From Ligilactobacillus faecis (GTDB lineage: Bacteria; Bacillota; Bacilli; Lactobacillales; Lactobacillaceae), in NCBI RefSeq assembly GCF_029889745.1, contig NZ_CP123639.1, positions 1,469,501-1,533,500 of the forward strand: a stretch of 64,000 nt of DNA, given 5' to 3'. The position numbers were made by a program, and so were the translations under genes. Within the stretch, counting starts at the first letter, position 1. The number at the start of each line of letters is the position of its first letter. The notes under the pieces were generated by a model. The model was given only the letters and a program-made list of their open reading frames with translations. It did no database searches and was not told the origin of the DNA. This document shows, one piece after another, positions 339-58,400 of this stretch.

Positions 339-1193
339 ATGCAAGAAGCAGAGGTATATGAAAAAGAAGCTGATAAGGTCGTTACTAAAACGGAGGAAAG
401 AACGCAAGTTATTCCGTTAAAGAAGGTGCGATTTGAAAAAGCGCTTAGTGAATTTATGGTCAAACCACTTGATTCGAGCTTAGAACTAAAATTCGTAAGT
501 GCACTCTATACAATGCTATTTTATGTACCCGTCCAAGTTGGCGAACAAGTAATTTCTGCCAAAAATCGTAAACCTGGGCTTAAATTAGACATTGCAACTA
601 TGACATATTTAGCGGATGGAAGTGAATATGTACCTGTATTTAGTAGCCCAGAGCGGATGGAGAGTTTCTTGCGTGGTATGGGAAAAAATACAGAGTTACG
701 TCCTATGGTTTTATCAGCTCAAGAGTTAATGTTTCAAGCGCGGAGAGTCAATGTGGCAGGAATTTTAGTCAATCCGGGAGAACATAATTTTCCTCTCACA
801 AATGAATATTGGAGCTATGTGAAACAGATTCGTCCGATCGATCTAGGAGATGGACGAAGTTTTAAACTAAAAATCATGCCACGTGATCCTGCAGCAAGGA
901 TCGAAAACAAACTGAAGAACGTACTAAAAAGAATGCGTAGTGTAAAGCGAGCATGGCTCTTGGGGGTCAAACTGCCGGAACACGAAGATTACGAATATGT
1001 GGTGATCGTTGATTATACAGGAGATAAGAAAAAATTTGAAGAGAGTGTGGCACGTAAGTTGGCAATAGGTATTCGTAGTCAGTTACCTTATCGTTCAGAT
1101 GTTTTGATCGGGACGACTAATGATTTAGTTGGACGTTCGGCCGATAAAAATTTCACGCCTTTTTATGAACGGCGTATTGGCTTATTTGGATGA
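339..1193 (+). CDS. SseB family protein
   Basis: This 284-residue cytoplasmic protein resembles the SseB (enhanced serine sensitivity) family. Residues about 30-120 match the SseB N-terminal domain pattern (ALSEFMVKPLDSSLELKF, then FYVPVQ, then a strand pair ending in YVPVFSSPERMESFL). Residues about 140-280 match the SseB C-terminal domain (ILVNPGEHNFPLTNEYW, IRPI, then a VKRAWLLGV...EYVVIVDY strand-helix unit). The ATG at 339 is preferred over the GTG at 330 because AGGTGA at 328-333 gives a five-base spacing to it. The biochemical role of SseB proteins is poorly defined. Placement in a tight run of small genes in front of two giant LPxTG adhesins is unusual and suggests a role in that locus. 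There is no signal peptide or membrane helix. Confidence 0.72.
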   Translation: MQEAEVYEKEADKVVTKTEERTQVIPLKKVRFEKALSEFMVKPLDSSLELKFVSALYTMLFYVPVQVGEQVISAKNRKPGLKLDIATMTYLADGSEYVPVFSSPERMESFLRGMGKNTELRPMVLSAQELMFQARRVNVAGILVNPGEHNFPLTNEYWSYVKQIRPIDLGDGRSFKLKIMPRDPAARIENKLKNVLKRMRSVKRAWLLGVKLPEHEDYEYVVIVDYTGDKKKFEESVARKLAIGIRSQLPYRSDVLIGTTNDLVGRSADKNFTPFYERRIGLFG

Positions 1194-1205
1194 GAGGTGA
1201 CTGAA

Positions 1206-1403
1206 ATGTATCGAATAGTAGTTGATGATCATTTGAAGAAAAAGGAGATTCGAAGAGGTAAAGGAGAGTTACCACTAGCAATCGAAGCAAGTAAACAAAA
1301 AGAGGAGTCAACATTTGCCAGTGCTATCGAAGTGGGTGAGTTCGAAGGCAAGATATCGCTAGGAACGCTCCCACTTTTTTTCGAACATAAGGGGGAGACA
1401 TAG
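1206..1403 (+). CDS. Small protein of unknown function before the adhesin
   Basis: This 65-residue protein begins MYRIVVDDHL. AGAGGTGA (1193-1200) lies about five bases before ATG 1206, which makes it a better start than the GTG inside the binding site at 1197. The middle is highly charged (KKKEIRRGKGE) and the end is more hydrophobic (ISLGTLPLFF). There is no clear signal peptide. Its TAG stop directly abuts the ATG of the giant adhesin at 1404, so the two are probably translationally coupled. I do not recognise a family. Together with the 60-residue and SseB-like genes it forms a conserved-looking mini-cluster whose product may be needed for adhesin production. Confidence 0.62.
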   Translation: MYRIVVDDHLKKKEIRRGKGELPLAIEASKQKEESTFASAIEVGEFEGKISLGTLPLFFEHKGET

Positions 1404-16481: not shown

Positions 16482-16580
16482 ATCAATAAGTCAGATTTAA
16501 TATATTTAAAGGATGACGGGTGGGTTAGAGGAATTTATTAGTGGTCTAGGAACATGTTATACAAAGGACGTGAGATATTA

Positions 16581-19500
16581 GTGAAAAGATATAAGTATGA
16601 TCAATTACGTAAGGCTCAACCAGAAAAGCTTTATCATAAAATGTATAAGGCGGGGAAGAACTGGGTCGTTATGGGATTGACCGTAGTTGGCTTTGGAATA
16701 TTATTTCCATCTTTAGCTAAAGCGGATACACAAGAAGACGTTCAAAAAACAGAAAATGTCCATGATGATCCAAATGAGGCAAACAATGAAAGTTCTTTGT
16801 CGATACAAGAAAACGATCAAATAAGGCAATTGGCACCTACTGAGGTGAAAGAAACAGATAAGCCAACTGTGACTTCAGATGATCCTACGAATGCTCAACA
16901 AGTGGATATTAACGATGCTGAAGCAGATAAGGGTATAGTTGAACAGCAAAGTAGTACCTCACAAGCAGAAGATCCAGTAGAGATAACTGTTGAACCAGTT
17001 GTTGTAAAAGCAACTATTAATAATGACCAAAATACGGAAGCAATTGAAAATATTTCTACGGAAGCAATTAAGAGAGCACAAGCTGAAAGCCCTGATTATT
17101 CAACACAAAATGCTACACAAGAGTCTGCAGGGGATACTCAAGAACAAGTAGAAACATCTGTAGCAGCTCCAGATCAAGCACAGCAGCCATCTGAAGTTGC
17201 GCCAGAGACAGTAGAAAAAACTACTCAAAATCAAGTTGCCTTTCGAGTTGCTAGTATGCGTGCCGCTACGCAATCTGTAGTTAACGATACTCCTGATGCA
17301 AAAATTGAACAAGAGATCCAAAAGTATATCAAATCAGGCGTGCTTACAAATGCAGATGTATCGACGACACCTATTTTGCCGAATCCAACACTCTTTGACG
17401 ATGCAAGCTTGACAGCTCCACGACCAATTAAGTCACAAACTAGAACGCTATCATATTACGCTCTTTATTATCCTTTTGTTAAACGTTTACAAGATGCGTA
17501 TAGTAAAAAAGATTACAAAGAAGTAATGAATAATCTAGCTATAATGAGAGTTTTTTCGGAGATTGGAAATCAGGAGCAAACTATTCCGATAAAAGAAAGC
17601 TTTAAGTATAAGGCAGATACAGCATTAGCGAGATTCTTCCAATCTTTAGCGGTAATTATCAATGTCGATCAGGATGGCCATATAATCACAGAAACTAGTG
17701 GAAGATTAGGGACTGTTAATTCTATTCTTACAGGAAGTGGTGAGGCGTATCGAGTCGATAGTGGGGCAAAATATGCTCTAGGAGGATTTACTAACGCCGC
17801 TCAAGGACCGGCTAAGGCTAAGCTTGAAATTCAGTTAGGAAAAAATGGGACTGATGACTTATTGGGGTACGATAGTAGTAATGTAGAAACGATTCAGAAC
17901 AATCCAGCTAATAAGTTAGGCCAATATGATTATTTGACTACCGATTATTACCATGCAGATGCTGATCATAATTTAATCAAATATGATGATAATGATCCTA
18001 ATAAGACGAAGTTTGCAGTTATCAATATGTCTAATCCAAAGAGCGCTAGCAATAATGATTACACGATAACATTGGTCGTCAATCGTTATGGAAAAGCTGG
18101 AGTTGAAAAAGCAACAGTGACAACGAAATACGTAGATGAACAAGGAAAAGCAGTTACACCAAGCACGCAAGTGCAAGTACAAGGGAACGTAGGCGATAAG
18201 GTGAGAGTACCAGCAGCGCCAACAGTAACTGGATATACGCTAAAAGCAGTGACGTTCAATGATGCTTCAACAAGTGTCGGAACAGAAGTAACGTTAGCAA
18301 AAGAAAATACCTTGAAGTATGAATACGTAAAAGCAGTTGAAAAAGCAACAGTGACAACGAAATACGTAGATGAACAAGAGAACGCAGTTACACCAAGCAC
18401 ACAAGTGCAAGTACAAGGGAATGTGGGCGACAAGGTGAGAGTACCAGCAGCGCCAACAGTAACTGGATATACGCTAAAAGCAGTGACGTTCAATGATGCT
18501 TCAACAAGTGTCGGAACAGAAGTAACGTTAGCAAAAGAAAATACCTTGAAGTATGAATACGTAAAAGCAGTTGAAAAAGCAACAGTGACAGCGAAATACG
18601 TAGATGAACAAGGGAACGCAGTTACACCAAGCACACAAGTGCAAGTACAAGGGAATGTGGGCGACAAGGTGAGAGTACCAGCAGCGCCAACAGTAACTGG
18701 ATATACGCTAAAAGCAGTGACGTTCAATGATGCTTCAACAAGTGTCGGAACAGAAGTAACGTTAGCAAAAGAAAATACCTTGAAGTATGAATACGTAAAA
18801 GCAGTTGAAAAAGCAACAGTGACAGCGAAATACGTAGATGAACAAGGGAACGCAGTTACACCAAGCACACAAGTGCAAGTACAAGGGAATGTAGGCGACA
18901 AGGTGAGAGTACCAGCAGCGCCAACAGTAACTGGATATACGCTAAAAGCAGTGACGTTCAATGATGCTTCAACAAGTGTCGGAACAGAAGTAACGTTAGC
19001 AAAAGAAAATACCTTGAAGTATGAATACGTAAAAGCAGTTGAAAAAGCAACAGTGACAACGAAATACGTAGATGAACAAGGGAACGCAGTTACACCAAGC
19101 ACGCAAGTGCAAGTACAAGGGAATGTAGGCGACAAGGTGAGAGTACCAGCAGCGCCAACAGTAACTGGATATACGCTAAAAGCAGTGACGTTCAACAATG
19201 CTTCAACAAGTGTCGGAACAGAAGTAACGTTAGCAAAAGAAAATACCTTGAAGTATGAATACGTAAAAGCAGTTGAAAAAGCAACAGTGACAGCGAAATA
19301 CGTAGATGAACAAGGGAACGCAGTTACACCAAGCACACAAGTGCAAGTACAAGGGAACGTAGGCGATAAGGTGAGAGTACCAGCAGCGCCAACAGTAACT
19401 GGATATACGCTAAAAGCAGTGACGTTCAACGATGCTTCAACAAGTGTCGGAACGGAAGTAACGTTAGCAAAAGAAAATACCTTGAAGTATGAATACGTAA

Positions 19501-22500
19501 AAGCAGTTGAAAAAGCAACAGTGACAACGAAATACGTAGATGAACAAGGGAACGCAGTTACACCAAGCACACAAGTGCAAGTACAAGGGAATGTAGGCGA
19601 CAAGGTGAGAGTACCAGCAGCGCCAACAGTAACTGGATATACGCTAAAAGCAGTGACGTTCAACGATGCTTCAACAAGTGTCGGAACAGAAGTAACGTTA
19701 GCAAAAGAAAATACCTTGAAGTATGAATACGTAAAAGCAGTTGAAAAAGCAACAGTGACAGCGAAATACGTAGATGAACAAGGTAATGCAGTTACACCAA
19801 GCACACAAGTGCAAGTACAAGGGAACGTAGGCGATAAGGTGAGAGTACCAGCAGCGCCAACAGTAACTGGATATACGCTAAAAGCAGTGACGTTCAACAA
19901 TGCTTCAACAAGTGTCGGAACAGAAGTAACGTTAGCAAAAGAAAATACCTTGAAGTATGAATACGTAAAAGCAGTTGAAAAAGCAACAGTGACAGCGAAA
20001 TACGTAGATGAACAAGGGAACGCAGTTACACCAAGCACGCAAGTGCAAGTACAAGGGAACGTAGGCGATAAGGTGAGAGTACCAGCAGCGCCAACAGTAA
20101 CTGGATATACGCTAAAAGCAGTGACGTTCAATGATGCTTCAACAAGTGTCGGAACAGAAGTAACGTTAGTAAAAGAAAATACCTTGAAGTATGAATACGT
20201 AAAAGCAGTTGAAAAAGCAACGGTAACAACGAAATACGTAGATGAACAAGGGAACGCAGTTACACCAAGCACGCAAGTGCAAGTACAAGGGAATGTGGAC
20301 GACAAAGTAACAGTGCCGACGGCCCCAGTAGTATCAGGTCATCATGTAGATAGCATCACTTTCAATGGGACAAAAGTCCAAGCAGGAAGTGAAGTAACAC
20401 TGGAAGAAACGAACGAATTGACATATACGTATGTGAAAGACGAAGAACCAGTGGTACCAGAAGCTAAAACGACAGTGAACTATCAAGCAGATGGCAAAGC
20501 AGTGAGCCCACAAGAAAAAGTCGAGCTAAAAGGACAAGTCGGTGATAAGGTAACAGTACCAGAAGCCCCAACAGTTCAAGGACATCATGTAGATAGCATC
20601 ACTTTCAATGGGACAAAAGTCCAAGCAGGAAGTGAAGTAACACTGGAAGAAACGAATGAATTGACATATACGTATGTGAAAGACGAAGAACCAGTGGTAC
20701 CAGAAGCTAAAACGACAGTAAACTATCAAGCAGATGGCAAAGCAGTGAGCCCACAAGAAAAAGTCGAGCTAAAAGGACAAGTCGGTGATAAGGTAACAGT
20801 ACCAGAAGCACCAATAGTTCAAGGACATCATGTAGATAGCATCACTTTCAATGGGACAAAAGTCCAAGCAGGAAGTGAAGTAACACTGGAAGAAACGAAC
20901 GAATTGACATATACGTATGTGAAAGACGAAGAACCAGTGGTACCAGAAGCTAAAACGACAGTGAACTATCAAGCAGATGGCAAAGCAGTGAGCCCACAAG
21001 AAAAAGTCGAGCTAAAAGGACAAGTCGGTGATAAGGTAACAGTACCAGAAGCCCCAACAGTTCAAGGACATCATGTAGATAGCATCACTTTCAATGGGAC
21101 AAAAGTCCAAGCAGGAAGTGAAGTAACACTGGAAGAAACGAATGAATTGACATATACGTATGTGAAAGACGAAGAACCAGTGGTACCAGAAGCTAAAACG
21201 ACAGTAAACTATCAAGCAGATGGCAAAGCAGTGAGCCCACAAGAAAAAGTCGAGCTAAAAGGACAAGTCGGTGATAAGGTAACAGTACCAGAAGCACCAA
21301 TAGTTCAAGGACATCATGTAGATAGCATCACTTTCAATGGGACAAAAGTCCAAGCAGGAAGTGAAGTAACACTGGAAGAAACGAACGAATTGACATATAC
21401 GTATGTGAAAGACGAAGAACCAGTGGTACCAGAAGCTAAAACGACAGTGAACTATCAAGCAGATGGCAAAGCAGTGAGCCCACAAGAAAAAGTCGAGCTA
21501 AAAGGACAAGTTGGCGATAAAGTAACAGTGCCGACGGCCCCAGTAGTATCAGGACATCATGTAGATAGCATCACTTTCAATGGGACAAAAGTCCAAGCAG
21601 GAAGTGAAGTAACACTGGAAGAAACGAACGAATTGACATATACGTATGTGAAAGACGAAGAACCAGTGGTACCAGAAGCTAAAACGACAGTGAACTATCA
21701 AGCAGATGGCAAAGCAGTGAGCCCACAAGAAAAAGTCGAGCTAAAAGGACAAGTCGGTGATAAGGTAACAGTACCAGAAGCCCCAGTAGTATCAGGACAT
21801 CATGTAGATAGCATCACTTTCAATGGGACAAAAGTCCAAGCAGGAAGTGAAGTAACACTGGAAGAAACGAACGAATTGACATATACGTATGTGAAAGACG
21901 AAGAACCAGTGGTACCAGAAGCTAAAACGACAGTGAACTATCAAGCAGATGGCAAAGCAGTGAGCCCACAAGAAAAAGTCGAGCTAAAAGGACAAGTTGG
22001 CGATAAAGTAACAGTGCCGACGGCCCCAGTAGTATCAGGTCATCATGTAGATAGCATCACTTTCAATGGGACAAAAGTCCAAGCAGGTAGTGAAGTAACA
22101 CTGAAAGAAACAAATGAATTGACATATACGTATGTGAAAGATGAAGAACCAGTGGTACCAGAAGCTAAAACGACAGTGAACTATCAAGCAGATGGCAAAG
22201 CAGTGAGCCCACAAGAAAAAGTCGAGCTAAAAGGACAAGTTGGCGATAAAGTAACAGTGCCGACGGCCCCAGTAGTATCAGGACATCATGTAGATAGCAT
22301 CACTTTCAATGGGACAAAAGTCCAAGCAGGTAGTGAAGTAACACTGAAAGAAACAAATGAATTGACATATACGTATGTGAAAGATGAAGAACCAGTGGTA
22401 CCAGAAGCTAAAACGACAGTGAACTATCAAGCAGATGGCAAAGCAGTGAGCCCACAAGAAAAAGTCGAGCTAAAAGGACAAGTTGGCGATAAAGTAACAG

Positions 22501-25500
22501 TGCCGACGGCCCCAGTAGTATCAGGACATCATGTAGATAGCATTACTTTCAATGGGACAAAAGTCCAAGCAGGTAGTGAAGTAACACTGAAAGAAACAAA
22601 TGAATTGACATATACGTATGTGAAAGATGAAGAACCAGTGGTACCAGAAGCTAAAACGACAGTGAACTATCAAGCAGATGGCAAAGCAGTGAGCCCACAA
22701 GAAAAAGTCGAGCTAAAAGGACAAGTTGGCGATAAAGTAACAGTGCCGACGGCCCCAGTAGTATCAGGACATCATGTAGATAGCATCACTTTCAATGGGA
22801 CAAAAGTCCAAGCAGGAAGTGAAGTAACACTGAAAGAAACAAATGAATTGACATATACGTATGTGAAAGACGAAGAACCAGTGGTACCAGAAGCTAAAAC
22901 GACAGTGAACTATCAAGCAGATGGCAAAGCAGTGAGCCCACAAGAAAAAGTCGAGCTAAGAGGACAAGTTGGCGATAAAGTAACAGTGCCGACGGCCCCA
23001 GTAGTATCAGGACATCATGTAGATAGCATCACTTTCAATGGGACAAAAGTCCAAGCAGGAAGTGAAGTAACACTGAAAGAAACAAATGAATTGACATATA
23101 CGTATGTGAAAGATGAAGAACCAGTGGTACCAGAAGCTAAAACGACAGTGAACTATCAAGCAGATGGCAAAGCAGTGAGCCCACAAGAAAAAGTCGAGCT
23201 AAAAGGACAAGTTGGCGATAAAGTAACAGTGCCGACGGCCCCAGTAGTATCAGGACATCATGTAGATAGCATTACTTTCAATGGGACAAAAGTCCAAGCA
23301 GGTAGTGAAGTAACACTGAAAGAAACAAATGAATTGACATATACGTATGTGAAAGATGAAGAACCAGTGGTACCAGAAGCTAAAACGACAGTGAACTATC
23401 AAGCAGATGGCAAAGCAGTGAGCCCACAAGAAAAAGTCGAGCTAAAAGGACAAGTTGGCGATAAAGTAACAGTGCCGACGGCCCCAGTAGTATCAGGTCA
23501 TCATGTAGATAGCATCACTTTCAATGGGACAAAAGTCCAAGCAGGAAGTGAAGTAACACTGGAAGAAACGAATGAATTGACATATACGTATGTGAAAGAC
23601 GAAGAACCAGTGGTACCAGAAGCCAAAACGACAGTGAACTATCAAGCAGATGGCAAAGCAGTGAGCCCACAAGAAAAAGTCGAGCTAAAAGGACAAGTTG
23701 GCGATAAAGTAACAGTGCCGACGGCCCCAGTAGTATCAGGACATCATGTAGATAGCATCACTTTCAATGGGACAAAAGTCCAAGCAGGAAGTGAAGTAAC
23801 ACTGGAAGAAACGAACGAATTGACATATACGTATGTGAAAGACGAAGAACCAGTGGTACCAGAAGCCAAAACGACAGTGAACTATCAAGCAGATGGTAAA
23901 GCAGTGAGCCCACAAGAAAAAGTCGAGCTAAAAGGACAAGTTGGCGATAAAGTAACAGTGCCGACGGCCCCAGTAGTATCAGGACATCATGTAGATAGCA
24001 TCACTTTCAATGGGACAAAAGTCCAAGCAGGAAGTGAAGTAACACTGGAAGAAACGAATGAATTGACATATACGTATGTGAAAGACGAAGAACCAGTGGT
24101 ACCAGAAGCCAAAACGACAGTGAACTATCAAGCAGATGGCAAAGCAGTGAGCCCACAAGAAAAAGTCGAGCTAAAAGGACAAGTTGGCGATAAGGTAACA
24201 GTACCAGAAGCCCCAACAGTTCAAGGACATCATGTAGATAGCATCACTTTCAATGGGACAAAAGTCCAAGCAGGAAGTGAAGTAACACTGGAAGAAACGA
24301 ACGAATTGACATATACGTATGTGAAAGACGAAGAACCAGTGGTACCAGAAGCCAAAACGACAGTGAACTATCAAGCAGATGGTAAAGCAGTGAGCCCACA
24401 AGAAAAAGTCGAGCTAAAAGGACAAGTTGGCGATAAAGTAACAGTGCCGACGGCCCCAGTAGTATCAGGACATCATGTAGATAGCATCACTTTCAATGGG
24501 ACAAAAGTCCAAGCAGGAAGTGAAGTAACACTGGAAGAAACGAATGAATTGACATATACGTATGTGAAAGACGAAGAACCAGTGGTACCAGAAGCCAAAA
24601 CGACAGTGAACTATCAAGCAGATGGCAAAGCAGTGAGCCCACAAGAAAAAGTCGAGCTAAAAGGACAAGTTGGCGATAAGGTAACAGTACCAGAAGCCCC
24701 AACAGTTCAAGGTCATCATGTAGATAGCATCACTTTCAATGGGACAAAAGTCCAAGCAGGAAGTGAAGTAACACTGGAAGAAACGAACGAATTGACATAT
24801 ACGTATGTGAAAGACGAAGAACCAGTGGTACCAGAAGCCAAAACGACAGTGAACTATCAAGCAGATGGTAAAGCAGTGAGCCCACAAGAAAAAGTCGAGC
24901 TAAAAGGACAAGTTGGCGATAAAGTAACAGTGCCGACGGCCCCAGTAGTATCAGGACATCATGTAGATAGCATCACTTTCAATGGGACAAAAGTCCAAGC
25001 AGGAAGTGAAGTAACACTGGAAGAAACGAATGAATTGACATATACGTATGTGAAAGACGAAGAACCAGTGGTACCAGAAGCCAAAACGACAGTGAACTAT
25101 CAAGCAGATGGCAAAGCAGTGAGCCCACAAGAAAAAGTCGAGCTAAAAGGACAAGTTGGCGATAAGGTAACAGTACCAGAAGCCCCAACAGTTCAAGGTC
25201 ATCATGTAGATAGCATCACTTTCAATGGGACAAAAGTCCAAGCAGGAAGTGAAGTAACACTGGAAGAAACGAACGAATTGACATATACGTATGTGAAAGA
25301 CGAAGAACCAGTGGTACCAGAAGCCAAAACGACAGTGAACTATCAAGCAGATGGTAAAGCAGTGAGCCCACAAGAAAAAGTCGAGCTAAAAGGACAAGTT
25401 GGCGATAAAGTAACAGTGCCGACGGCCCCAGTAGTATCAGGACATCATGTAGATAGCATCACTTTCAATGGGACAAAAGTCCAAGCAGGAAGTGAAGTAA

Positions 25501-26312
25501 CACTGGAAGAAACGAATGAATTGACATATACGTATGTGAAAGACGAAGAACCAGTGGTACCAGAAGCTAAAACGACAGTAAACTATCAAGCAGATGGCAA
25601 AGCAGTGAGCCCACAAGAAAAAGTCGAGCTAAAAGGACAAGTTGGCGATAAAGTAACAGTGCCGACGGCCCCAGCAGTATCAGGACATCATGTAGATAGT
25701 ATCACTTTCAATGGGACGAAAGTCCAAGCAGGAAGTGAAGTAACACTGGGAGAAACGAACGAATTGACATATACGTATGTGAAAGACGAAGAACCAGTGG
25801 TACCAGAAGCTAAAACGACAGTGAACTATCAAGCAGATGGCAAAGCAGTGAGCCCACAAGAAAAAGTCGAGCTAAAAGGACAAGTCGGTGATAAGGTAAC
25901 AGTACCAGAAGCCCCAGTAGTATCAGGACATCATGTAGATAGCATCACTTTCAATGGGACAAAAGTCCAAGCAGGAAGTGAAGTAACGCTGGAAGAAACG
26001 AACGAATTGACATATACGTATGTGAAAGATGAAGAACTTAAAAATCTAGCTAATGAGACCAATGGAACTGTGAATACTGTTTCGAAGACCACAGATGATA
26101 CTATGAATAGTCATTCTCAAAAAGTGGTTGAGACTGATGTACAAAATTCACTAAGTAGCGAATTCTCTAAATCAAGTGCTGGACAAAGTGACTTACCGCA
26201 AACGGGAGATGAAGTGGAAGATATGAAAGCAGGTCTTCTAGGGACATTGCTTGTGGCTCTTGGCGGTTTTCTCGGAGGAAGCGTAGGAAAACGAAAGAAT
26301 AAGAGTAAGTAA
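16581..26312 (+). CDS. Giant LPxTG repeat adhesin with KxYKxGKxW signal
   Basis: This is a second wall-anchored surface protein of about 3,243 residues. The signal peptide carries a textbook KxYKxGKxW motif (KMYKAGKNWVVMGL, about residues 20-33) and a likely cleavage after LAKAD. An acidic Glu/Thr/Gln-rich stretch follows to about residue 240, then a unique domain (about 250-505) that may be the binding head. Residues 508-1209 are nine 78-residue MucBP-like repeats (KYVDEQGNAVTPS), 1210-1287 one hybrid unit, and 1288-3150 twenty-three 81-residue repeats (VNYQADGKAVSPQEKVEL). LPQTGDE near 3205, a hydrophobic segment and a KRKNKSK tail end the protein. GTG 16581 is chosen because AAAGGACGTGA (16563-16573) matches the Shine-Dalgarno sequence at 7-base spacing; ATG 16554 in the same frame is the alternative. 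It follows the first adhesin by about 100 bp. Confidence 0.92.
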   Translation: MKRYKYDQLRKAQPEKLYHKMYKAGKNWVVMGLTVVGFGILFPSLAKADTQEDVQKTENVHDDPNEANNESSLSIQENDQIRQLAPTEVKETDKPTVTSDDPTNAQQVDINDAEADKGIVEQQSSTSQAEDPVEITVEPVVVKATINNDQNTEAIENISTEAIKRAQAESPDYSTQNATQESAGDTQEQVETSVAAPDQAQQPSEVAPETVEKTTQNQVAFRVASMRAATQSVVNDTPDAKIEQEIQKYIKSGVLTNADVSTTPILPNPTLFDDASLTAPRPIKSQTRTLSYYALYYPFVKRLQDAYSKKDYKEVMNNLAIMRVFSEIGNQEQTIPIKESFKYKADTALARFFQSLAVIINVDQDGHIITETSGRLGTVNSILTGSGEAYRVDSGAKYALGGFTNAAQGPAKAKLEIQLGKNGTDDLLGYDSSNVETIQNNPANKLGQYDYLTTDYYHADADHNLIKYDDNDPNKTKFAVINMSNPKSASNNDYTITLVVNRYGKAGVEKATVTTKYVDEQGKAVTPSTQVQVQGNVGDKVRVPAAPTVTGYTLKAVTFNDASTSVGTEVTLAKENTLKYEYVKAVEKATVTTKYVDEQENAVTPSTQVQVQGNVGDKVRVPAAPTVTGYTLKAVTFNDASTSVGTEVTLAKENTLKYEYVKAVEKATVTAKYVDEQGNAVTPSTQVQVQGNVGDKVRVPAAPTVTGYTLKAVTFNDASTSVGTEVTLAKENTLKYEYVKAVEKATVTAKYVDEQGNAVTPSTQVQVQGNVGDKVRVPAAPTVTGYTLKAVTFNDASTSVGTEVTLAKENTLKYEYVKAVEKATVTTKYVDEQGNAVTPSTQVQVQGNVGDKVRVPAAPTVTGYTLKAVTFNNASTSVGTEVTLAKENTLKYEYVKAVEKATVTAKYVDEQGNAVTPSTQVQVQGNVGDKVRVPAAPTVTGYTLKAVTFNDASTSVGTEVTLAKENTLKYEYVKAVEKATVTTKYVDEQGNAVTPSTQVQVQGNVGDKVRVPAAPTVTGYTLKAVTFNDASTSVGTEVTLAKENTLKYEYVKAVEKATVTAKYVDEQGNAVTPSTQVQVQGNVGDKVRVPAAPTVTGYTLKAVTFNNASTSVGTEVTLAKENTLKYEYVKAVEKATVTAKYVDEQGNAVTPSTQVQVQGNVGDKVRVPAAPTVTGYTLKAVTFNDASTSVGTEVTLVKENTLKYEYVKAVEKATVTTKYVDEQGNAVTPSTQVQVQGNVDDKVTVPTAPVVSGHHVDSITFNGTKVQAGSEVTLEETNELTYTYVKDEEPVVPEAKTTVNYQADGKAVSPQEKVELKGQVGDKVTVPEAPTVQGHHVDSITFNGTKVQAGSEVTLEETNELTYTYVKDEEPVVPEAKTTVNYQADGKAVSPQEKVELKGQVGDKVTVPEAPIVQGHHVDSITFNGTKVQAGSEVTLEETNELTYTYVKDEEPVVPEAKTTVNYQADGKAVSPQEKVELKGQVGDKVTVPEAPTVQGHHVDSITFNGTKVQAGSEVTLEETNELTYTYVKDEEPVVPEAKTTVNYQADGKAVSPQEKVELKGQVGDKVTVPEAPIVQGHHVDSITFNGTKVQAGSEVTLEETNELTYTYVKDEEPVVPEAKTTVNYQADGKAVSPQEKVELKGQVGDKVTVPTAPVVSGHHVDSITFNGTKVQAGSEVTLEETNELTYTYVKDEEPVVPEAKTTVNYQADGKAVSPQEKVELKGQVGDKVTVPEAPVVSGHHVDSITFNGTKVQAGSEVTLEETNELTYTYVKDEEPVVPEAKTTVNYQADGKAVSPQEKVELKGQVGDKVTVPTAPVVSGHHVDSITFNGTKVQAGSEVTLKETNELTYTYVKDEEPVVPEAKTTVNYQADGKAVSPQEKVELKGQVGDKVTVPTAPVVSGHHVDSITFNGTKVQAGSEVTLKETNELTYTYVKDEEPVVPEAKTTVNYQADGKAVSPQEKVELKGQVGDKVTVPTAPVVSGHHVDSITFNGTKVQAGSEVTLKETNELTYTYVKDEEPVVPEAKTTVNYQADGKAVSPQEKVELKGQVGDKVTVPTAPVVSGHHVDSITFNGTKVQAGSEVTLKETNELTYTYVKDEEPVVPEAKTTVNYQADGKAVSPQEKVELRGQVGDKVTVPTAPVVSGHHVDSITFNGTKVQAGSEVTLKETNELTYTYVKDEEPVVPEAKTTVNYQADGKAVSPQEKVELKGQVGDKVTVPTAPVVSGHHVDSITFNGTKVQAGSEVTLKETNELTYTYVKDEEPVVPEAKTTVNYQADGKAVSPQEKVELKGQVGDKVTVPTAPVVSGHHVDSITFNGTKVQAGSEVTLEETNELTYTYVKDEEPVVPEAKTTVNYQADGKAVSPQEKVELKGQVGDKVTVPTAPVVSGHHVDSITFNGTKVQAGSEVTLEETNELTYTYVKDEEPVVPEAKTTVNYQADGKAVSPQEKVELKGQVGDKVTVPTAPVVSGHHVDSITFNGTKVQAGSEVTLEETNELTYTYVKDEEPVVPEAKTTVNYQADGKAVSPQEKVELKGQVGDKVTVPEAPTVQGHHVDSITFNGTKVQAGSEVTLEETNELTYTYVKDEEPVVPEAKTTVNYQADGKAVSPQEKVELKGQVGDKVTVPTAPVVSGHHVDSITFNGTKVQAGSEVTLEETNELTYTYVKDEEPVVPEAKTTVNYQADGKAVSPQEKVELKGQVGDKVTVPEAPTVQGHHVDSITFNGTKVQAGSEVTLEETNELTYTYVKDEEPVVPEAKTTVNYQADGKAVSPQEKVELKGQVGDKVTVPTAPVVSGHHVDSITFNGTKVQAGSEVTLEETNELTYTYVKDEEPVVPEAKTTVNYQADGKAVSPQEKVELKGQVGDKVTVPEAPTVQGHHVDSITFNGTKVQAGSEVTLEETNELTYTYVKDEEPVVPEAKTTVNYQADGKAVSPQEKVELKGQVGDKVTVPTAPVVSGHHVDSITFNGTKVQAGSEVTLEETNELTYTYVKDEEPVVPEAKTTVNYQADGKAVSPQEKVELKGQVGDKVTVPTAPAVSGHHVDSITFNGTKVQAGSEVTLGETNELTYTYVKDEEPVVPEAKTTVNYQADGKAVSPQEKVELKGQVGDKVTVPEAPVVSGHHVDSITFNGTKVQAGSEVTLEETNELTYTYVKDEELKNLANETNGTVNTVSKTTDDTMNSHSQKVVETDVQNSLSSEFSKSSAGQSDLPQTGDEVEDMKAGLLGTLLVALGGFLGGSVGKRKNKSK
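18102..20207 (+). repeat. Nine tandem 234-bp repeats (type A)
   Basis: Units start with GTTGAAAAAGCAACAGTGAC at 18102 and every 234 bp thereafter to 20207. Each encodes 78 residues of MucBP-like sequence. Variation is confined to a few sites, such as ACA/GCG giving TTKY or TAKY and GAT/AAC giving FND or FNN. Confidence 0.95.
20208..20441 (+). repeat. Hybrid repeat unit joining types A and B
   Basis: The first half is type A (ATVTTKYVDEQGNAVTPS...QGNV) and the second half type B (DKVTVPTAPVVSGHHVDS...YTYVKD). The switch falls at the shared DKVxVP motif near 20300. The unit keeps the type A length of 234 bp. Confidence 0.9.
20442..26030 (+). repeat. Twenty-three tandem 243-bp repeats (type B)
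   Basis: Units beginning GAAGAACCAGTGGTACCAGA run from 20442 to 26030, which is exactly 23 x 243 bp. Each encodes 81 residues. Copies 1-4 and 16-21 alternate between two linker variants, so the DNA there has a 486-bp higher-order period; copies 7-12 share an LKE variant in place of LEE. Copy number should be treated with caution if the assembly used short reads. Confidence 0.95.
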
Positions 26313-36185: not shown

Positions 36186-36221
36186 AAAGTAGTAATGCCA
36201 AATGGTGTTACTACTTTTTTT
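36186..36221 (+). terminator. Terminator of mleSP
   Basis: AAAGTAGTAATGCC pairs with GGTGTTACTACTTT (two wobble pairs) around AAAT, followed by seven T. Confidence 0.9.
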
Positions 36222-36303
36222 AGCTAAAAAACTGGGACTTTTATTTTGGCATGAGCTGTGCTATCGTTTGAAAAAATTCCCATATATGCAAAGGAGGTAA
36301 AAA

Positions 36304-37152
36304 ATGCGGTTAAGTGGTGAAGTTTTTCAAAAATTTCGTAGAGCTCGAGGCTTAAAGCTAAAAGACCTCACAACTACTGGACTGTCAACGTCACAATTAT
36401 CACGTTTTGAACATGGAAAAACAGATTTGACAGTTACAAAATTTATGTTGGCTTTGGATATACTAAAGATTCCATTAGATGAATTTACCTATACTATGCA
36501 CGACTTTCAACAAGATGAATTAAGTGAATTATTAGTTCAAGTTGAACGGTTTAGTCTATCTAAAAATATTGCTGGATTAAAACGACTTCTAATTGCAACT
36601 TTAGAAGAAGATGAACATACGAAATTTGGTCAATTAAAGGTTATTTTACTTAAGATCAAAATGCAAGAGATGACTGGGGAAACATGCTATGAAAAAAAAG
36701 ATATAGACTATCTAACTGAGTATTTATTTAGTGTCGAAGAGTGGGGGCGTTATGAGTTATTATTTTTTGTAAATACTATTGAAGTTTTAAATCATCAATC
36801 TCTAATGGTTTTAACTCGTGAAATGGTTCGGCGTTCAGATTTATATAAAGAATTACCCGAAAATCGAAAATTATTGTCAAAAATGCTTCTAAAAGGGTAT
36901 TTGACTTGCATAAAACAAAATAAATTAAGTGATGCCGTATATTTTGAAAAACAACTTAAAAACTTAGAATTTACGGAGACCGAGATTTATGAACGTTTGT
37001 TTTTTCACTATTGCAAAAATTTGGCTTGTTATCGAGCAACAAAAAGCTATAAAGCTTTACTTGAGTTACGTAAATGTATCGCAATGTTGCGTTTAGTTGC
37101 GAGCGATCACTTAGCCGATACATATGAACAAGACTTAGAACAGATTCTTTAA
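36304..37152 (+). CDS. Rgg/MutR family transcriptional regulator
   Basis: This 282-residue protein has the Rgg/GadR/MutR layout. A helix-turn-helix spans residues about 5-60 (FQKFRRARGLKLKDLTTTGL, then SQLSRFEHGKTDLTV), and the rest is an all-helical TPR-like domain that in this family binds peptide pheromones. AAAGGAGGT precedes ATG 36304. It lies directly before a radical-SAM RiPP operon, so it probably controls it. In streptococci such clusters are run by Rgg with a short hydrophobic peptide (SHP), but I found no SHP-like gene in the flanking gaps. Codon use is AT-rich with aag-att and gag-att pairs that the flanking genes avoid, a hint of transfer. Confidence 0.88.
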   Translation: MRLSGEVFQKFRRARGLKLKDLTTTGLSTSQLSRFEHGKTDLTVTKFMLALDILKIPLDEFTYTMHDFQQDELSELLVQVERFSLSKNIAGLKRLLIATLEEDEHTKFGQLKVILLKIKMQEMTGETCYEKKDIDYLTEYLFSVEEWGRYELLFFVNTIEVLNHQSLMVLTREMVRRSDLYKELPENRKLLSKMLLKGYLTCIKQNKLSDAVYFEKQLKNLEFTETEIYERLFFHYCKNLACYRATKSYKALLELRKCIAMLRLVASDHLADTYEQDLEQIL

Positions 37153-37186
37153 AGTGGAATTTGCAAATAAGGGAAATTTTTTTTAA

Positions 37187-37225
37187 TTGAATAACTACGT
37201 GTAAACTAATTAATGTAAGCTTACA
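37187..37225 (+). promoter_or_regulatory. Precursor promoter region with palindrome
   Basis: TTGAAT (37187-37192) is a possible -35 with an AT-rich -10 area TAATTAAT (37207-37214). It runs into a perfect 12-bp palindrome TGTAAGCTTACA (37214-37225); an extra TGTAA lies at 37200-37204 (GTGTAAAC). The palindrome is 23 bp before the precursor ATG and may be the Rgg operator. Confidence 0.45.
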
Positions 37226-37248
37226 AAATTTATCTAGGAGGTGAAATT

Positions 37249-37398
37249 ATGACGATCGAGTTTACAGAAGAAGAATTAAATCTTATGAAAAAAATCGATG
37301 CAAAAATGGCTTTCTATAGATCAGTTGCAGAGGCGAGCAACTCCACTTTAGTTTCTATTGCAAATGATAATAGGAAAACCATACGTCGTCGCTATTGA
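37249..37398 (+). CDS. RRR-class RiPP precursor peptide
   Basis: This 49-codon gene encodes the likely substrate of the radical SAM enzyme that starts 18 bp downstream. AGGAGGTG (37236-37243) stands five bases before ATG 37249, one of the strongest binding sites in the window. The product begins MTIEFTEEELNLMKKID, an acidic helical leader, passes through a Ser/Ala/Asn region and ends NRKTIRRRY with tyrosine as the last residue. In the streptococcal RRR subfamily of radical-SAM RiPPs the enzyme links an arginine side chain to tyrosine within an RRRY motif. The same motif here, at the extreme C-terminus between an Rgg gene and a SPASM enzyme, is strong evidence for that class. The final product and its cleavage site are not deducible. 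Confidence 0.85.
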   Translation: MTIEFTEEELNLMKKIDAKMAFYRSVAEASNSTLVSIANDNRKTIRRRY

Positions 37399-37416
37399 TT
37401 TACGAGGTATTCAAGG

Positions 37417-38805
37417 ATGAACTATGAACTTGAAGAGGGTGTTTTAAAACCTATTTTGTCTGTAGGTAAGTTAAAGAAGTTTTCATTGGCATCGATATAT
37501 AAGAAAAGTATTGATCAAAATTACACACTTGTTATTAATACTTTTAGGAATAAAATATTGGTTGTTGATAATCAATGCATTATGGACGATAAAGTGGAGA
37601 TAGATGAATCTCTAGAAAATTGGTTTAAAACGCCAGCTAATGACTTGGAATATTTTACCGTAGATACTTTGTATGACAGTGAACAATTGTTAGAAGCAAA
37701 AAAGAGGATACAGATCTCTATTGCAGTTACTTATTCTTGTAATTTACACTGCAGTTATTGTTTTCAACAAAAGTATGATGGCTTAATAAAGAAGACAATA
37801 ACGTTGGCTGATTTAAATATTATCTTAGATAAAATTTCTGAGTTGCAAGCTAAGGATCCAAAGTTAGATATTTCGATCGGGTTGTTTGGTGGAGAACCTT
37901 TATTACCGAAAAATGAAGCAATAATTGATAGAATTTTTGAATATTGTGTAGAACATAAGGTCAAGGTAGGTATTACAACAAATGGAATATTTTTACCATA
38001 CTTCGCTAAAAAATTGATCATATATCGAGGCATAATATCAGCTATAGCAGTTACGATAAATACTTTACCAGAGACTTATAGAGAAACTGTGAAAATAACT
38101 AAAGTTGCTAATAATCCAGAAAAATTACTTGCAGTAACAAAGCTACTTTTAGATTATGGAGTAGTTATGGATGTCGGAACTAATTTTGATAAAACTAATT
38201 TGTCAAAATTAAGTGATATTTTTAACTATTTCGTGGATCAAGGATACTTTGAAAGAGAGAATTTTTATTGGAATGTTGGCAGAGTTGATGATCGCTTTTT
38301 TGATACTGGCTATGATGATTATATTGTATCAGAAACAGATATCTTGCTCGAATTGATGAAAATTAAAGATGGTATTCCAAATAATTTGCATGCTGGCTTT
38401 ATTCAAACATGTAAAAATATTACAGATAAGTTGGATCTGTCTTTTAATGAAGAACAAATTAAGGGGATATATAACTATTGCTGGAATGTCTCGCCATATG
38501 AAAAAGTTTACTATGTGGACAACGAATTGAATTTATTCAGATGCACTGTAACAGTAGGGCGTCCGCAGTATATTTTGGGAAATTTAGATAATTTTGACCT
38601 ATTGACCTATGAGCATGAAACAAAAACATTTTTAGACTATAAAGTATGTCAAACTTGTTACTTAGGCGGCTTTTGCTCTGGAGGGTGTAAGTTATCTGCT
38701 GACGTTGATTTTGATAAACAATGTAGATGGGAAAAGAAAGAGTTTGAAAGATTTGTAAATTTAATTTTATTACCTGAAATTAAAAAAAGGTTAAAATGCT
38801 TATGA
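37417..38805 (+). CDS. Radical SAM/SPASM peptide maturase (RrrB-like)
   Basis: This 462-residue enzyme carries the radical SAM cluster motif CNLHCSYC (Cys108, Cys112, Cys115). Residues 1-95 are a leader-peptide recognition-type N-terminal region. The TIM barrel contains GLFGGEPLL, the GGEP SAM-binding motif. The C-terminal SPASM part has Cys in NYCWN, FRCTV, then CQTC (411, 414), CSGGC (420, 424) and QCRW, enough for two auxiliary 4Fe-4S clusters. SPASM enzymes that follow Rgg and a short peptide gene form C-C crosslinks in RiPPs. With the RRRY precursor the predicted reaction is an Arg-Tyr crosslink. GAGG (37404-37407) is nine bases before ATG 37417. Its end overlaps the exporter gene by 10 bp. 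Confidence 0.92.
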   Translation: MNYELEEGVLKPILSVGKLKKFSLASIYKKSIDQNYTLVINTFRNKILVVDNQCIMDDKVEIDESLENWFKTPANDLEYFTVDTLYDSEQLLEAKKRIQISIAVTYSCNLHCSYCFQQKYDGLIKKTITLADLNIILDKISELQAKDPKLDISIGLFGGEPLLPKNEAIIDRIFEYCVEHKVKVGITTNGIFLPYFAKKLIIYRGIISAIAVTINTLPETYRETVKITKVANNPEKLLAVTKLLLDYGVVMDVGTNFDKTNLSKLSDIFNYFVDQGYFERENFYWNVGRVDDRFFDTGYDDYIVSETDILLELMKIKDGIPNNLHAGFIQTCKNITDKLDLSFNEEQIKGIYNYCWNVSPYEKVYYVDNELNLFRCTVTVGRPQYILGNLDNFDLLTYEHETKTFLDYKVCQTCYLGGFCSGGCKLSADVDFDKQCRWEKKEFERFVNLILLPEIKKRLKCL

Positions 38806-39980
38806 CAAAAGCTTTTAAACGCCTAGCTCTTTCGCAGATCATGGCTGATCTAGCCGATACAGCTTTAACGGTCTTGATCATTGCTAATATTTATCAGCTT
38901 TCAGATTCATTGCTTGCTAGTTCAGTCATCCCGATCTTGATGGGCAGTTCTTCTTTTTTGACGACATTTTTGGCACCGCTGATCAGTAAAAAAATACCTT
39001 TAAATCAAATAATGGTCGCTACTCAGGCTGGAAAAACTTTGATCTTAGCTCTTTTAACACTTAGTCTGGCTTTTTATCCTAAATTGCCGGTTATTTTGAT
39101 CTATCTTTTAGTTTTGGTGATCTCATTACTTGATGGGGTCGAACGCCCAGTGACCGTTACTTTGATGGCGCATTATACAACTGATCTGACTAAAGCTAAT
39201 TCAGTTTTAACGGTTTGTGATGAGACGGTAGCATTGCTTGGTTGGGGCTTTGGAGGTGTCTTATACACGAGTTTAGGTATCCACTGGGGGTTATTAGTGA
39301 CGCTGAGCATATTTATACTGGCCACAAGCGTGACGTGTCTATTACCGCGCGTTGCATTTACAAGTTTTGAAACTGAAAATAACTGGCAACTACTGTTCAA
39401 AGGTTGGCAGCTCTTACTCAAACAGCCACGATTAAAACTTTTAGTTACGTTGAACTTGATCGAGACGTTTGCTAATACGATCTGGGTCTCATCGATCATC
39501 TTAGTTTTTGTGACTAAGGTCTTACATGAAGATCAAGCTTACTGGGGTTATGCAAATATGACGTATTCGTTTGGGATCATCTTAGGCGGACTCATCGTTT
39601 ACCGTAGAGCTGACGCTTTAGTCACTAGGAAAGTTTTTGCGATCATCTCAGCATTACTTTTAACGGTTTTGTTCAACATCGTGATCTTAAAAATACCAGT
39701 TCCAAGTGTCTTTTTAGCCTGCTCAGTTTTGATCGGGATCGTTTCTCAGCTAAAAGAGGTCCCAGAAGCCGTTTTGTATCAGGAAAGTGTTGCTAAAGAA
39801 CTACTGGTCGATCTTAGTTCTGTGTTTGAAGTGATCTCGACTTTGAGTTTTGCGGGTCTACTGTTTTTGATGAGTTGGGTGACAGAAAGTTTTGGGATCG
39901 GTGTTTCTTTTGGTTTAGCGAGCTTGAGTCTTTTGGCCGAAGCTTCACTAGCCTTTAAATACCGAAAATATCTAACGTAA
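38796..39980 (+). CDS. MFS transporter, probable RiPP exporter
   Basis: This 394-residue protein has about twelve hydrophobic helices and the look of MFS drug or peptide exporters (MefA/macrolide-efflux-like), for example GSSSFLTTFLAPLISKKIP near residue 50 and LLDGVERPVTVTLMAHY near 110. Its start ATG 38796 lies inside the radical SAM gene (10-bp overlap), with AAAGG five bases upstream, so translation is coupled. The likely job is export of the modified peptide, or self-protection. Codon use follows the native style of the window (ATC after G-ending codons), unlike the enzyme gene before it. No dedicated protease gene is present; the leader would have to be removed by a host peptidase. Confidence 0.85.
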   Translation: MLMTKAFKRLALSQIMADLADTALTVLIIANIYQLSDSLLASSVIPILMGSSSFLTTFLAPLISKKIPLNQIMVATQAGKTLILALLTLSLAFYPKLPVILIYLLVLVISLLDGVERPVTVTLMAHYTTDLTKANSVLTVCDETVALLGWGFGGVLYTSLGIHWGLLVTLSIFILATSVTCLLPRVAFTSFETENNWQLLFKGWQLLLKQPRLKLLVTLNLIETFANTIWVSSIILVFVTKVLHEDQAYWGYANMTYSFGIILGGLIVYRRADALVTRKVFAIISALLLTVLFNIVILKIPVPSVFLACSVLIGIVSQLKEVPEAVLYQESVAKELLVDLSSVFEVISTLSFAGLLFLMSWVTESFGIGVSFGLASLSLLAEASLAFKYRKYLT

Positions 39981-55412: not shown

Positions 55413-58400
55413 ATGCTTTCAAAAAATAATCGTAAGCTACAAGCTCAAAAGTTAGAACCAAGAAGTCAACACTTTACGATCAAAAAATTCACTATCGGAG
55501 TTGCTTCGGTCTTGATCGGATCTACATTTGTTTTAACGGTCGGAAATGATCGTGTTTCTGCAAATGAGAACACAGGCGAACCTTTGACTGAAAAAGTCAC
55601 ACCAAGTGATACTGAAGTTGATGAGAATGTGATTCCATTTAGTAGTGAAGATACAGGAGAAGATGAACAAACGCGATCAGAAGCTGAAACGAATCCTACG
55701 CTTGAAGCTACGACGATCGCTGAAGAAACAACGCCAACTGCTCAGGAAGAAGATGTTACAGAACAAGAGGCGCCAACAACTGAGCTTACAGATGAAACGC
55801 AAGCGCTCCCAAACGATAGTGCAATGGACGCTCCAGCCACAGAAACTGTAACTCCAACTCTTGAAGAAACTCCAACTTCTGAAGCTTCGACCACAACACA
55901 AGCCAAAGATCTAGAGATCGAACCTGTTGAAGCGCCTGCACCAACTTCAACTGAAGATAAGGCGTTGACAGAACAAGCAAATACCCAAGAGAGAGGTATA
56001 ACGACATTTGCAGCTAGTGACTCTTCACAATGGCCGTCGAATTCGACCGATGCGATCGGAAATGAAAGTGGTATCAGTGTTCCACAAACAGAATATAACT
56101 ATACTTTCTCAACGATCTCGATGAATCCAGACAAGCTTACTGGAACTGCGATCTTAGACGGTAATGTGATCCCATTTACTGTTGCCCACTACATGCAAGG
56201 GGCGAATTCACAAGAACGTTATAAGATCCGGATCCAATTAGATCAGCGTATGGCAGATATGGTCGAAAGTATCACGTTGAACCCAGCTGATAATTATAAC
56301 GCTAATGCAGGTCGGACTTTCACCCGTGTGATCAATTCTGACGGAACTTTATCAAATATTTGGGAGATCCCATTTATCTATGCGCAAGGCGGTATTTTTG
56401 GTGGTGCGGCGATCTCAGCTAGTTATATCGCACCGTTAGGCAAGATCACCTTGAAAGATAGTGTTAAAAATACCTTGACTGCTTTAGGTGATGTAGCTAA
56501 TAATCCACTGATCTACAATATTTATGTGTATGATGCGCAAACAAAACGGTCTTTGGAAGGAGACGATTCCCAAGGCTTCTTTATCACAGAAGGTAATCCA
56601 TTAAATGACATTACGATCTCTGATGATGATCGTGTGATCGGTGGAGATTACTTCTTAGGTTCGACGACACAAGTTGGTTATGATAATTTAGGCGATCCAA
56701 ATGGCAATGGTGGGATCATTGTTGATTATGCTGCTCAAAAGAAAGGTCCTGTTTGGTCCTATACGAACGGGCAAGGTTGGACTCTGAATTTCCAAATCGA
56801 TAAAGAACTTACACAATATTTAGAAAAGAATGCCGATGGGACTTACAATGTTGAATTAGATATGCGTGATTTCAACGGACTTGACGGTTTCTTTTATAAA
56901 GATTCAGCTGGAAATATGACGCAAGTTTATAATCCAAAAAATAAAGTCGATCCTGCTAAATTTACTGTAACGTTAAATGACAATGGGGTCGGTCAGATCG
57001 TACCAAAAAATGGTTTGACAAATATCGTTGCGACCAACCCATTATTACCTGAACCGATCGGGACACGTTTAGTTTTCCGTTTGAATAGACCGATCGAAGA
57101 GGTTTTTGCTGATATGAAAGCTAATGGACGCGCAGACAAAGATCTTCTCTTCTCAGTCTACTTTGCTAATAGCACAAATGAAGCGATCAGAAATAGTATC
57201 GGAACAAGTTTGATCAGCTTTAGTGATTCTGACGGGGATAACATCCCAGATGCAAAAGAAGATGCTGATAAGACCAATCCATACGTTTCGATCCCAGATG
57301 TTTCCAATGTTTATGAGACAGAAACAGTCGTTAAAGGTATCGTGGCGATCAACCGCAATGAAACAGCTGATCAGATCATTACTGTTCTAGATAAAAATGG
57401 AAATGTCCTTGGAACGACGACGATCACCCCGACCTTCAGTGAAGGTGATGGGGATGTAAAGAACTTTGCGTATAGTGTGGATATCCCAAGTCAAGCAGCT
57501 GGGACGGAATTGACGGTCTCAGTTAAGAGTAAATTTGACAATGGTGGCGATAAAAATGCAGTTGACAATAGCCAACCACAAACGACGACTGTGACCGTTG
57601 GTGTAGCTCCAACAGCACAGGCACTCGAGACAGCGACTAAACCAGACTTAAGTGATACTGCAACTAAAGAAGAGATCATTGCTTTACTACCGACTGCAAA
57701 AGATGGGGTCGCTAATAGCAGTGAATTTCCAACTGGTGCAACCTATACATGGGAAGAAGTGCCGGCAGTTGCCGATCTAAAAACACCTGGAACGACAACT
57801 GGTAAAGTCAAAGTTTCGTTCCCAGATGAATTTGATCCAAGTTATATCCACGAGTTACTCGTTGAAGTGCCGATCACTGTAAAAGATACTGAAAGCGCTA
57901 AATATGAACCAGTCGCTACTCCGATCGTTAAACCTTTTGGCGAAGCGACAACTGAAGAAAATATTATCGGTGCAATTACATTTGCTCCAGAGTATCCAGC
58001 TGGACCAAATCAACCAAGTATCACAGTTGATGATATTTCTAGTCTCCCAGATGGCAATACGCCAGGGGTCTACAATGTGCCGGTAACAGTCATCTATCCA
58101 GATGGCTCAACAGACAAGACAACGGTAGAAGTCACTGTCTTAGATAAGATCATTGATCGGACTAACGATCCAAGTGCTCCTATTCCTGAAGGTTATGTAC
58201 GTGTGACCTTTAATGCTGGAACTGATGGGAAATTTGCTGATGGTGCAAGTACGATCTTTGATGTGAAAAAAGGAACGGATCTGGCAGAACTTACCTTGCC
58301 AACAGTTGTTCCAAATGAAGGGTTCGTACAAAAAGATGGTGCTGAAGCTTGGTCGCCAGCCCTACCAGCAACTTTTGAGACGACAGCAGAATATACCGCA

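Follow-up and report, generated by a model that had tools for sequence, protein, structure and literature searches.

Organization of the locus

The window, a 64,000-nucleotide stretch of the Ligilactobacillus faecis genome (contig NZ_CP123639.1, positions 1,469,501 to 1,533,500), contains a gene cluster of the ryptide (RRR) class, whose products are ribosomally synthesized and post-translationally modified peptides made with radical S-adenosylmethionine (SAM) enzymes (RaS-RiPPs). As listed in Table 1, four co-directional genes encode an Rgg regulator, a precursor peptide, a radical SAM/SPASM maturase and an exporter of the major facilitator superfamily (MFS). A 96-bp spacer separates rgg from the precursor gene and an 18-bp gap the precursor gene from the maturase gene, which the exporter gene overlaps by 10 bp. 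All four parts had been named in an original prediction made from the sequence alone, and all were present at 36304-39980. Judged by its sequence, the locus is real, complete and of the ryptide class; its host is new, and it diverges in the length of the precursor, in the exporter and in its pheromone control.

Table 1. Features of the ryptide-class locus (positions in the window)
Feature	Position	Strand	Remarks
Putative Rgg box, upstream copy TTCCCATATATGC	36277..36289	+	exact 13-mer, starts 27 nt before rgg
Rgg transcriptional regulator (SHP-Rgg type by similarity)	36304..37152	+	282 aa
Putative Rgg box, downstream copy TTCCCTTATTTGC	37163..37175	-	2 mismatches; precedes peptide operon
Palindrome TGTAAGCTTACA before precursor gene, possibly an operator	37214..37225	+	exact in S. 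cuniculi ryptide locus
RrrA-like precursor peptide	37249..37398	+	49 aa, leader FTEEEL..M, C-terminal core ...TIRRRY
RrrB-like ryptide-class radical SAM/SPASM maturase	37417..38805	+	462 aa; NF040899 830 bits
MFS exporter, ryptide-exporter lineage	38796..39980	+	394 aa; NF041056 419.3 bits

Ryptides are described from Streptococcus suis, S. parauberis and S. thermophilus in sections of four papers (PMC7670169, PMC8326336, PMC13361665, PMC12445099), in which RrrB links the C-delta of Arg with Tyr at its ortho position and the RRR class is under the control of Rgg and short hydrophobic peptides (SHPs). Their function is given as uncharacterized in a section of one of these (PMC13361665). Like the known clusters (RrrA/RrrB; models NF041055, NF040899 and NF041056), the cluster in the window has a maturase above the curated cut-off, an RRRY end, the same gene order and box-like sites. 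It differs in its non-Streptococcus host, in having no SHP gene, in a precursor of 49 rather than 41 residues, and in a precursor and an exporter that score below the curated cut-offs, for which reason we call it a variant of the ryptide kind. As had been predicted, the host lies outside Streptococcus; it belongs to the same order as the named streptococci but to another family.

Maturase and precursor peptide

The maturase matched NF040899 (ryptide_rSAM) across positions 1-460 of 464 with 830 bits (E 4.6e-250; curated cut-off 600 bits), and its next-best family reached 63.5 bits. It thus groups with the ryptide maturase model instead of unrelated SPASM maturases, which bears out the RRR class and the RrrB-type enzyme proposed at first. 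SPASM radical SAM enzymes carry a CX3CX2C motif plus auxiliary-cluster cysteines including CX2CX5CX3C. In the window enzyme, CNLHCSYC supplies the former (C108/C112/C115), and three aligned sequences share nine further invariant cysteines, among them those of the SPASM CX2CX5CX3C at 411-424 (C411/C414/C420/C424) together with C355, C376 and C436. As regards an N-terminal peptide-binding (RRE) fold, no PqqD/RRE Pfam match was found in the maturase at E<=0.01. A PDB sequence search returned eight partial matches (best 45.7 bits), and the AlphaFold2 model, built from two input sequences, had a mean pLDDT of 49.9 and was unusable.

Among the fetched sequences, the closest full-length relative of the maturase is the enzyme of S. 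cuniculi WM131 (L032, NZ_SPPD01000024.1). The S. cuniculi locus has the same order rgg-precursor-maturase-exporter, with an upstream box and a palindrome identical to those of the window; its maturase is 69%, its Rgg 54% and its exporter 44% identical to the window proteins. Its proteins pass all three curated ryptide models, although they may be among the seeds of those models; the exporter scores 684.9 bits against NF041056. In contrast to the window, an SHP gene (MKNQKLLPLLFLLFEGIIIIVVG) is present in S. cuniculi, divergent from rgg and about 90 nt away from it. Another relative, from Streptococcus sp. 121, is a C-terminal maturase fragment close to a contig end and adjoining a transposase gene start (by eye); over this fragment the window maturase is 74.7% identical (170 aa) and that of S. 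cuniculi 73.2% (179 aa).

RrrB acts on an RRRY motif, and only one of the 232 ATG open reading frames (ORFs) of 22-80 aa in the window ends in RRRY; the same ORF is the sole one ending RxY. Its first 17 residues resemble the S. cuniculi precursor to a degree reached in none of 5000 shuffles. The latter peptide (41 aa, ending HITRRRY) matches NF041055, a model of 41 positions, end to end with 93.3 bits; the window precursor is eight residues longer, the extra length lying between leader and core. RRRY is therefore kept in the sole intact close relative that was found. The original prediction had also made a point of the terminal Tyr and the missing follower peptide. Tyr is indeed the last residue here, but the S. 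cuniculi precursor likewise ends in TRRRY, so that the missing follower is not peculiar to the window cluster.

Rgg, putative boxes and the missing pheromone gene

The regulator scored 153.5 bits against TIGR01716 and 174.5 bits against PF21259, and its gene adjoins the operon, in agreement with the Rgg linkage proposed before. Rgg matches at 1e-45 were present in 74 of 284 Streptococcus genomes; a second Rgg-domain gene lies elsewhere in the L. faecis genome. For comparison we used the 20 best streptococcal loci fetched, the S. cuniculi locus being included again (as L103). At 162 positions invariant in 17 streptococcal Rggs, the window protein keeps 119 residues (43 changed), whereas S. cuniculi keeps 161 (one changed).

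The upstream 13-mer TTCCCATATATGC is the sole exact copy in the genome. A same-orientation box with at most two mismatches precedes rgg by 29-30 nt in 20 of 20 streptococcal loci, and an inverted copy, again with at most two mismatches, follows rgg directly in all 20. The weight of the downstream putative box of the window lies in its position, not in the rarity of its sequence. The box-bearing upstream spacers have 14 nt in common, a length reached in none of 1000 shuffles. When read on the other strand, the window Rgg box is overlapped by AATTGTXTATATGGGAT, an S. mutans motif that part of one report (PMC8092268) puts forward as the site of PdrA.

Between the downstream box and the precursor gene, the palindrome TGTAAGCTTACA is the sole window match even when one mismatch is allowed. 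It occurs in S. cuniculi at nearly equal distance and has at least three mismatches in the 19 other streptococcal Rgg loci; a 13-nt string common to both ryptide spacers was reached in 2 of 1000 shuffles. In S. cuniculi, TGTAAGCTTACA belongs to a longer inverted repeat. A strong RNA hairpin spans it there (z -4.38), whereas the window has none of that strength (z 0.94), which makes a role at the DNA level likelier.

The original prediction did not mention that the usual SHP pheromone gene is missing at the locus. Of the 20 streptococcal loci, 17 have an intact SHP gene that diverges from rgg at a distance of about 90 nt, and L094 and L095 have a broken one; in L105, which like L093 is cut by a contig end, none was seen within the 155 nt of its upstream stretch. 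Both loci with a broken SHP gene, which lies on the strand opposite to rgg and about 90 nt ahead of it, retain both boxes. In the window, no SHP-like ORF was found in the cluster spacers, and a profile of five streptococcal SHPs had no match in the whole genome at E<=10. With the same profile four streptococcal genomes gave 2.1e-14 to 1.6e-10, although they are not independent controls because their SHPs, or an identical one, sit in the profile; the best match in G611, a related species of the genus described below, reached only E 0.38. An ORF of 32 aa directly ahead of rgg (36202-36300) was rejected as a candidate signal peptide gene, as its start lies inside a terminator-like hairpin (36186-36217). 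From its sequence this SHP-less locus may be a receiver-only one.

The Rgg could instead sense a non-SHP peptide encoded in its own genome, either an ultra-short leaderless one or the mature ryptide itself, in a closed quorum circuit; we consider this possible but doubtful. Leaderless communication peptides with RopB-type receptors in Lactobacillaceae, and distinct peptide-contacting residues in two Ligilactobacillus species, are described in part of one paper (PMC10518010). The window Rgg is also substituted at many positions fixed in streptococci, yet it remains 54-57% identical to the 20 best streptococcal Rggs, most of which stand beside SHP genes. Moreover, when the 5-40 aa frames preceding the window rgg and the remnant rgg of G611 were compared by eye, no common peptide was found, which also speaks against such a circuit.

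Distribution and origin of the cluster

The maturase was found in one of 26 sampled genomes of the genus. In the order, one genome of 395, that of the window itself, has a maturase above the NF040899 cut-off, and two of 284 Streptococcus genomes gave matches at E<=1e-40, one above the cut-off and the other a fragment. Since the collection holds one genome per species, presence at the strain level, as in S. suis and S. thermophilus, is missed. Profile A1 at E<=1e-15 matched 25 other genomes among 398 of the phylum; the window reached 888.6 bits and the best of the others 105.9. In 13 distant loci (L036, L037 and L077-L087, from 11 of these 25 genomes), a filtered scan for small ORFs that carry Arg and Tyr close to their end gave candidates in L080 and L087, neither convincing. 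In viral_contigs the single maturase protein had no match and the profile two weak partial ones; a precursor search of phage records gave two matches, at E 2 and 6. No report of ryptides outside streptococci was found in open-licence PubMed Central papers, which is a weak absence. A RaS-RiPP locus outside streptococci, that of enteropeptin in Enterococcus cecorum, resembles the window in this respect but is without shp/rgg according to part of one account (PMC12445099), whereas the window keeps Rgg. Its chemistry also differs, enteropeptin being described in a section of another (PMC13361665) as a sactipeptide with a thiomorpholine ring.

The cluster is flanked upstream by a malic-enzyme-like gene (named by eye) and an auxin-efflux gene and downstream by an energy-coupling factor (ECF) transporter gene. 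The auxin-efflux and ECF genes adjoin each other without the cluster in 7 of 24 other loci of the genus (L051-L053, L064, L065, L067 and L069), relative to which the cluster is therefore an insertion. No Rgg, maturase or exporter gene was found within about 1.5 kb on each side in any of the 24.

Two related species carry remnants. In G611 (L110, G611:C28, 10243-12382) an Rgg gene with an in-frame stop stands before an exporter gene that is interrupted by an early stop, about 30 kb from that genome's own empty site; no trace of a precursor or maturase was found within 19 kb. In G624 (L119) an exporter with an internal stop, 98% identical to that of G611, lies at a contig end, which is why the exporter alone is visible there. 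Neither genome has a maturase. The remnants resemble the window in Rgg (61%, G611 fragment), exporter (53%) and, for G611, upstream DNA, and differ from it in their broken reading frames and in lacking the maturase. In trees the window Rgg grouped with the G611 remnant and the window exporter with both remnants (support 100/99 each), although branches are long and the exporter tree has five rows only. The segment 36218-36278, which leads up to the upstream box, and the upstream DNA of the G611 remnant are 81% identical (62 columns, E 3e-8); otherwise only 13-18 nt matches to this segment were found in 232 kb of genus and window sequence. Because this upstream DNA is common to the SHP-less G611 remnant, and no shared peptide was seen by eye, an arrangement without SHP probably predates this single genome.

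A recent transfer from one of the sampled streptococci was not supported: the window maturase is as near to the Streptococcus sp. 121 fragment as the S. cuniculi enzyme is, and the window Rgg falls off the streptococcal set and groups with the genus remnants. The expectation that the family would be extended beyond streptococci thus held with regard to the host, but this is not simply a streptococcal cluster, since relatives in the genus carry remnants of the same lineage.

The G+C content is 0.314 in rgg and 0.302 in the maturase gene, while the exporter gene (0.404) is host-like, equal to the window as a whole (0.404). The Ile codons ATC/ATT/ATA number 24/3/5 in the exporter and 5/21/15 in the maturase gene. 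A sharp shift in composition and Ile codons thus falls between 36304-38805 and 38796-39980, inside one operon. In the G611 remnant, Rgg has 0.41 and the exporter 0.36. Low G+C was dropped as proof of recent import, because the S. cuniculi cluster is equally AT-rich beside genes at 0.45 and 0.47. The first three genes may have arrived after the exporter gene, or they may have resisted amelioration.

It is rather unlikely, in our estimate, that the operon is a silent or decaying acquisition, unexpressed and heading for the state of G611 and G624. That two related species retain only broken genes of the lineage fits such a course. A similar remnant state is known from S. thermophilus, in which nothing but the transporter is left of the ryptide operon in 264 of 265 strains, and no ryptide was detectable from strain CIRM30, whose operon is complete, according to part of one study (PMC12445099). 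The missing pheromone gene, the diverged downstream box and the failure to find a consensus promoter before the precursor gene are also as expected of decay. All four genes of the window are open, however, the maturase reaches its 830 bits with the cluster-binding cysteines in place, and the upstream box is exact.

A distant relative from the gut

The sole clear relative from plasmid and phage records is MT837704.1 (L035), an unverified record of 6.3 kb that is labelled 'Bacteriophage sp.' and comes from human faeces. Its cluster at 1072-5858 comprises an RNPP-like regulator (RNPP_C 23.5 bits, below the cut-off of 26.5), a 34-aa peptide ending HRLY (MYTVTFSNEELEEMKANDAVVIVSCDDDNGHRLY), a maturase, an MFS protein and part of a second radical SAM gene. 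The maturase is 36% identical to that of the window; its 349.6 bits against ryptide_rSAM fall short of the cut-off, although its next family is far lower (72.3). The MFS protein had no match to the ryptide exporter model NF041056. As for its precursor, 1 of 5000 shuffles was as similar to the window peptide, and none of 5000 was as similar to that of S. cuniculi. The RRRY end named in the original prediction is kept in S. cuniculi; this more distant relative has HRLY instead.

From composition and regulator type, the host of MT837704.1 would lie beyond Lactobacillales. If its enzyme performs the same chemistry, the Arg two residues before the terminal Tyr would be the shared partner. The HRLY relative thus suggests a class reaching beyond Lactobacillales with Arg-x-Tyr as its minimal shared core.

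The same HRLY end, together with a window precursor that is eight residues longer than that of S. cuniculi and fails the curated precursor model, might also indicate that a ryptide-like enzyme makes a different bond, at another Arg of RRR or elsewhere in the longer precursor. We regard this as very unlikely given the equivalog-level match of the enzyme and the identical RRRY end. RrrB reportedly rejects Lys for Arg and Phe for Tyr, which argues the same way, but it processes truncated substrates, as stated in part of one paper (PMC7670169).

Other features of the window

Three very long repetitive LPQTG surface-protein genes lie at 1404-16481, 16554-26312 and 55413-61199 (5025, 3252 and 1928 aa), two of them adjacent. 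A 739-aa antisense frame at 18086-20305 (minus strand), within the repeats of the 3252-aa gene, is probably a by-product of repeat codon usage. Parts of the 3-kb second contig of the genome matched two Lactobacillus plasmids (9% and 3% of the contig), five records being matched in all.

Proposed function and significance

The enzyme and regulator families, the gene order, the RRRY end, the box-like sites, the lack of a recognisable SHP gene and the remnants in the genus can be read directly from sequence. The best explanation, which we hold with high confidence, is a complete ryptide-class RaS-RiPP operon of a lactobacillar lineage, driven by its Rgg through two boxes, with the pheromone gene missing. 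The original prediction of an RRR-class radical SAM RiPP cluster was therefore partly supported.

Several results weigh against this explanation. The precursor matched NF041055 only in residues 1-22 (21.9 bits, cut-off 45). The exporter spans positions 1-391 of 392 of NF041056, still its best family, but lies below the cut-off of 575. The downstream box has two mismatches, and two such window matches arise in 33 of 100 shuffles. No sigma-70-like promoter was found by a consensus scan of the plus strand before rgg or the precursor gene. Because 43 of the 162 streptococcal-invariant positions are changed, the ligand of the window Rgg could differ. Since SHP is also broken in the streptococcal loci L094 and L095, its loss need not mean eavesdropping, and the five-peptide profile would miss an unrelated signal, for example a leaderless communication peptide.

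From the parts of the locus we infer the Arg-Tyr bond, the identity of its Arg, cleavage, export, promoter control and receiver-only behaviour. The leader (FTEEEL..M) would present the C-terminal RRRY to the SPASM maturase, which would form a C-C bond from the Arg side chain (C-delta in the known case) to the ring of the last Tyr, with loss of two H (-2.016 Da), so that the end of the peptide would be closed into a macrocycle. The leader would be removed by a protease encoded outside the cluster and the product exported by the MFS protein. The operon would be driven by its own Rgg through the two boxes. Because the pheromone gene that is normally back to back with rgg is missing, the switch would depend on a peptide encoded elsewhere, coming from another strain or genus, or on an unrecognised peptide of its own.

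A receiver-only ryptide system triggered by neighbouring streptococci or other strains, together with a class that extends beyond Lactobacillales through the HRLY relative, is a bolder reading that we think unlikely. It is equally speculative that, within such a system, the lactobacillar lineage lost the pheromone gene and kept an SHP-type Rgg and both putative boxes, so that cross-genus eavesdropping would gate the production of a peptide natural product.

The chemistry of the locus is probably already known; what is new is a Lactobacillaceae-type host for a ryptide-class locus. The complete locus in a lactobacillus-type host, with the broken remnants in its relatives, offers a second host background in which ryptide activity may be found. 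Two points deserve a test, namely the possible receiver-only regulation and the Arg-x-Tyr relative. The single-Arg core of the gut cluster could help to identify the Arg of RRRY that matters, and the locus raises the testable question of whether a streptococcal SHP can switch on an Rgg without a pheromone gene of its own.

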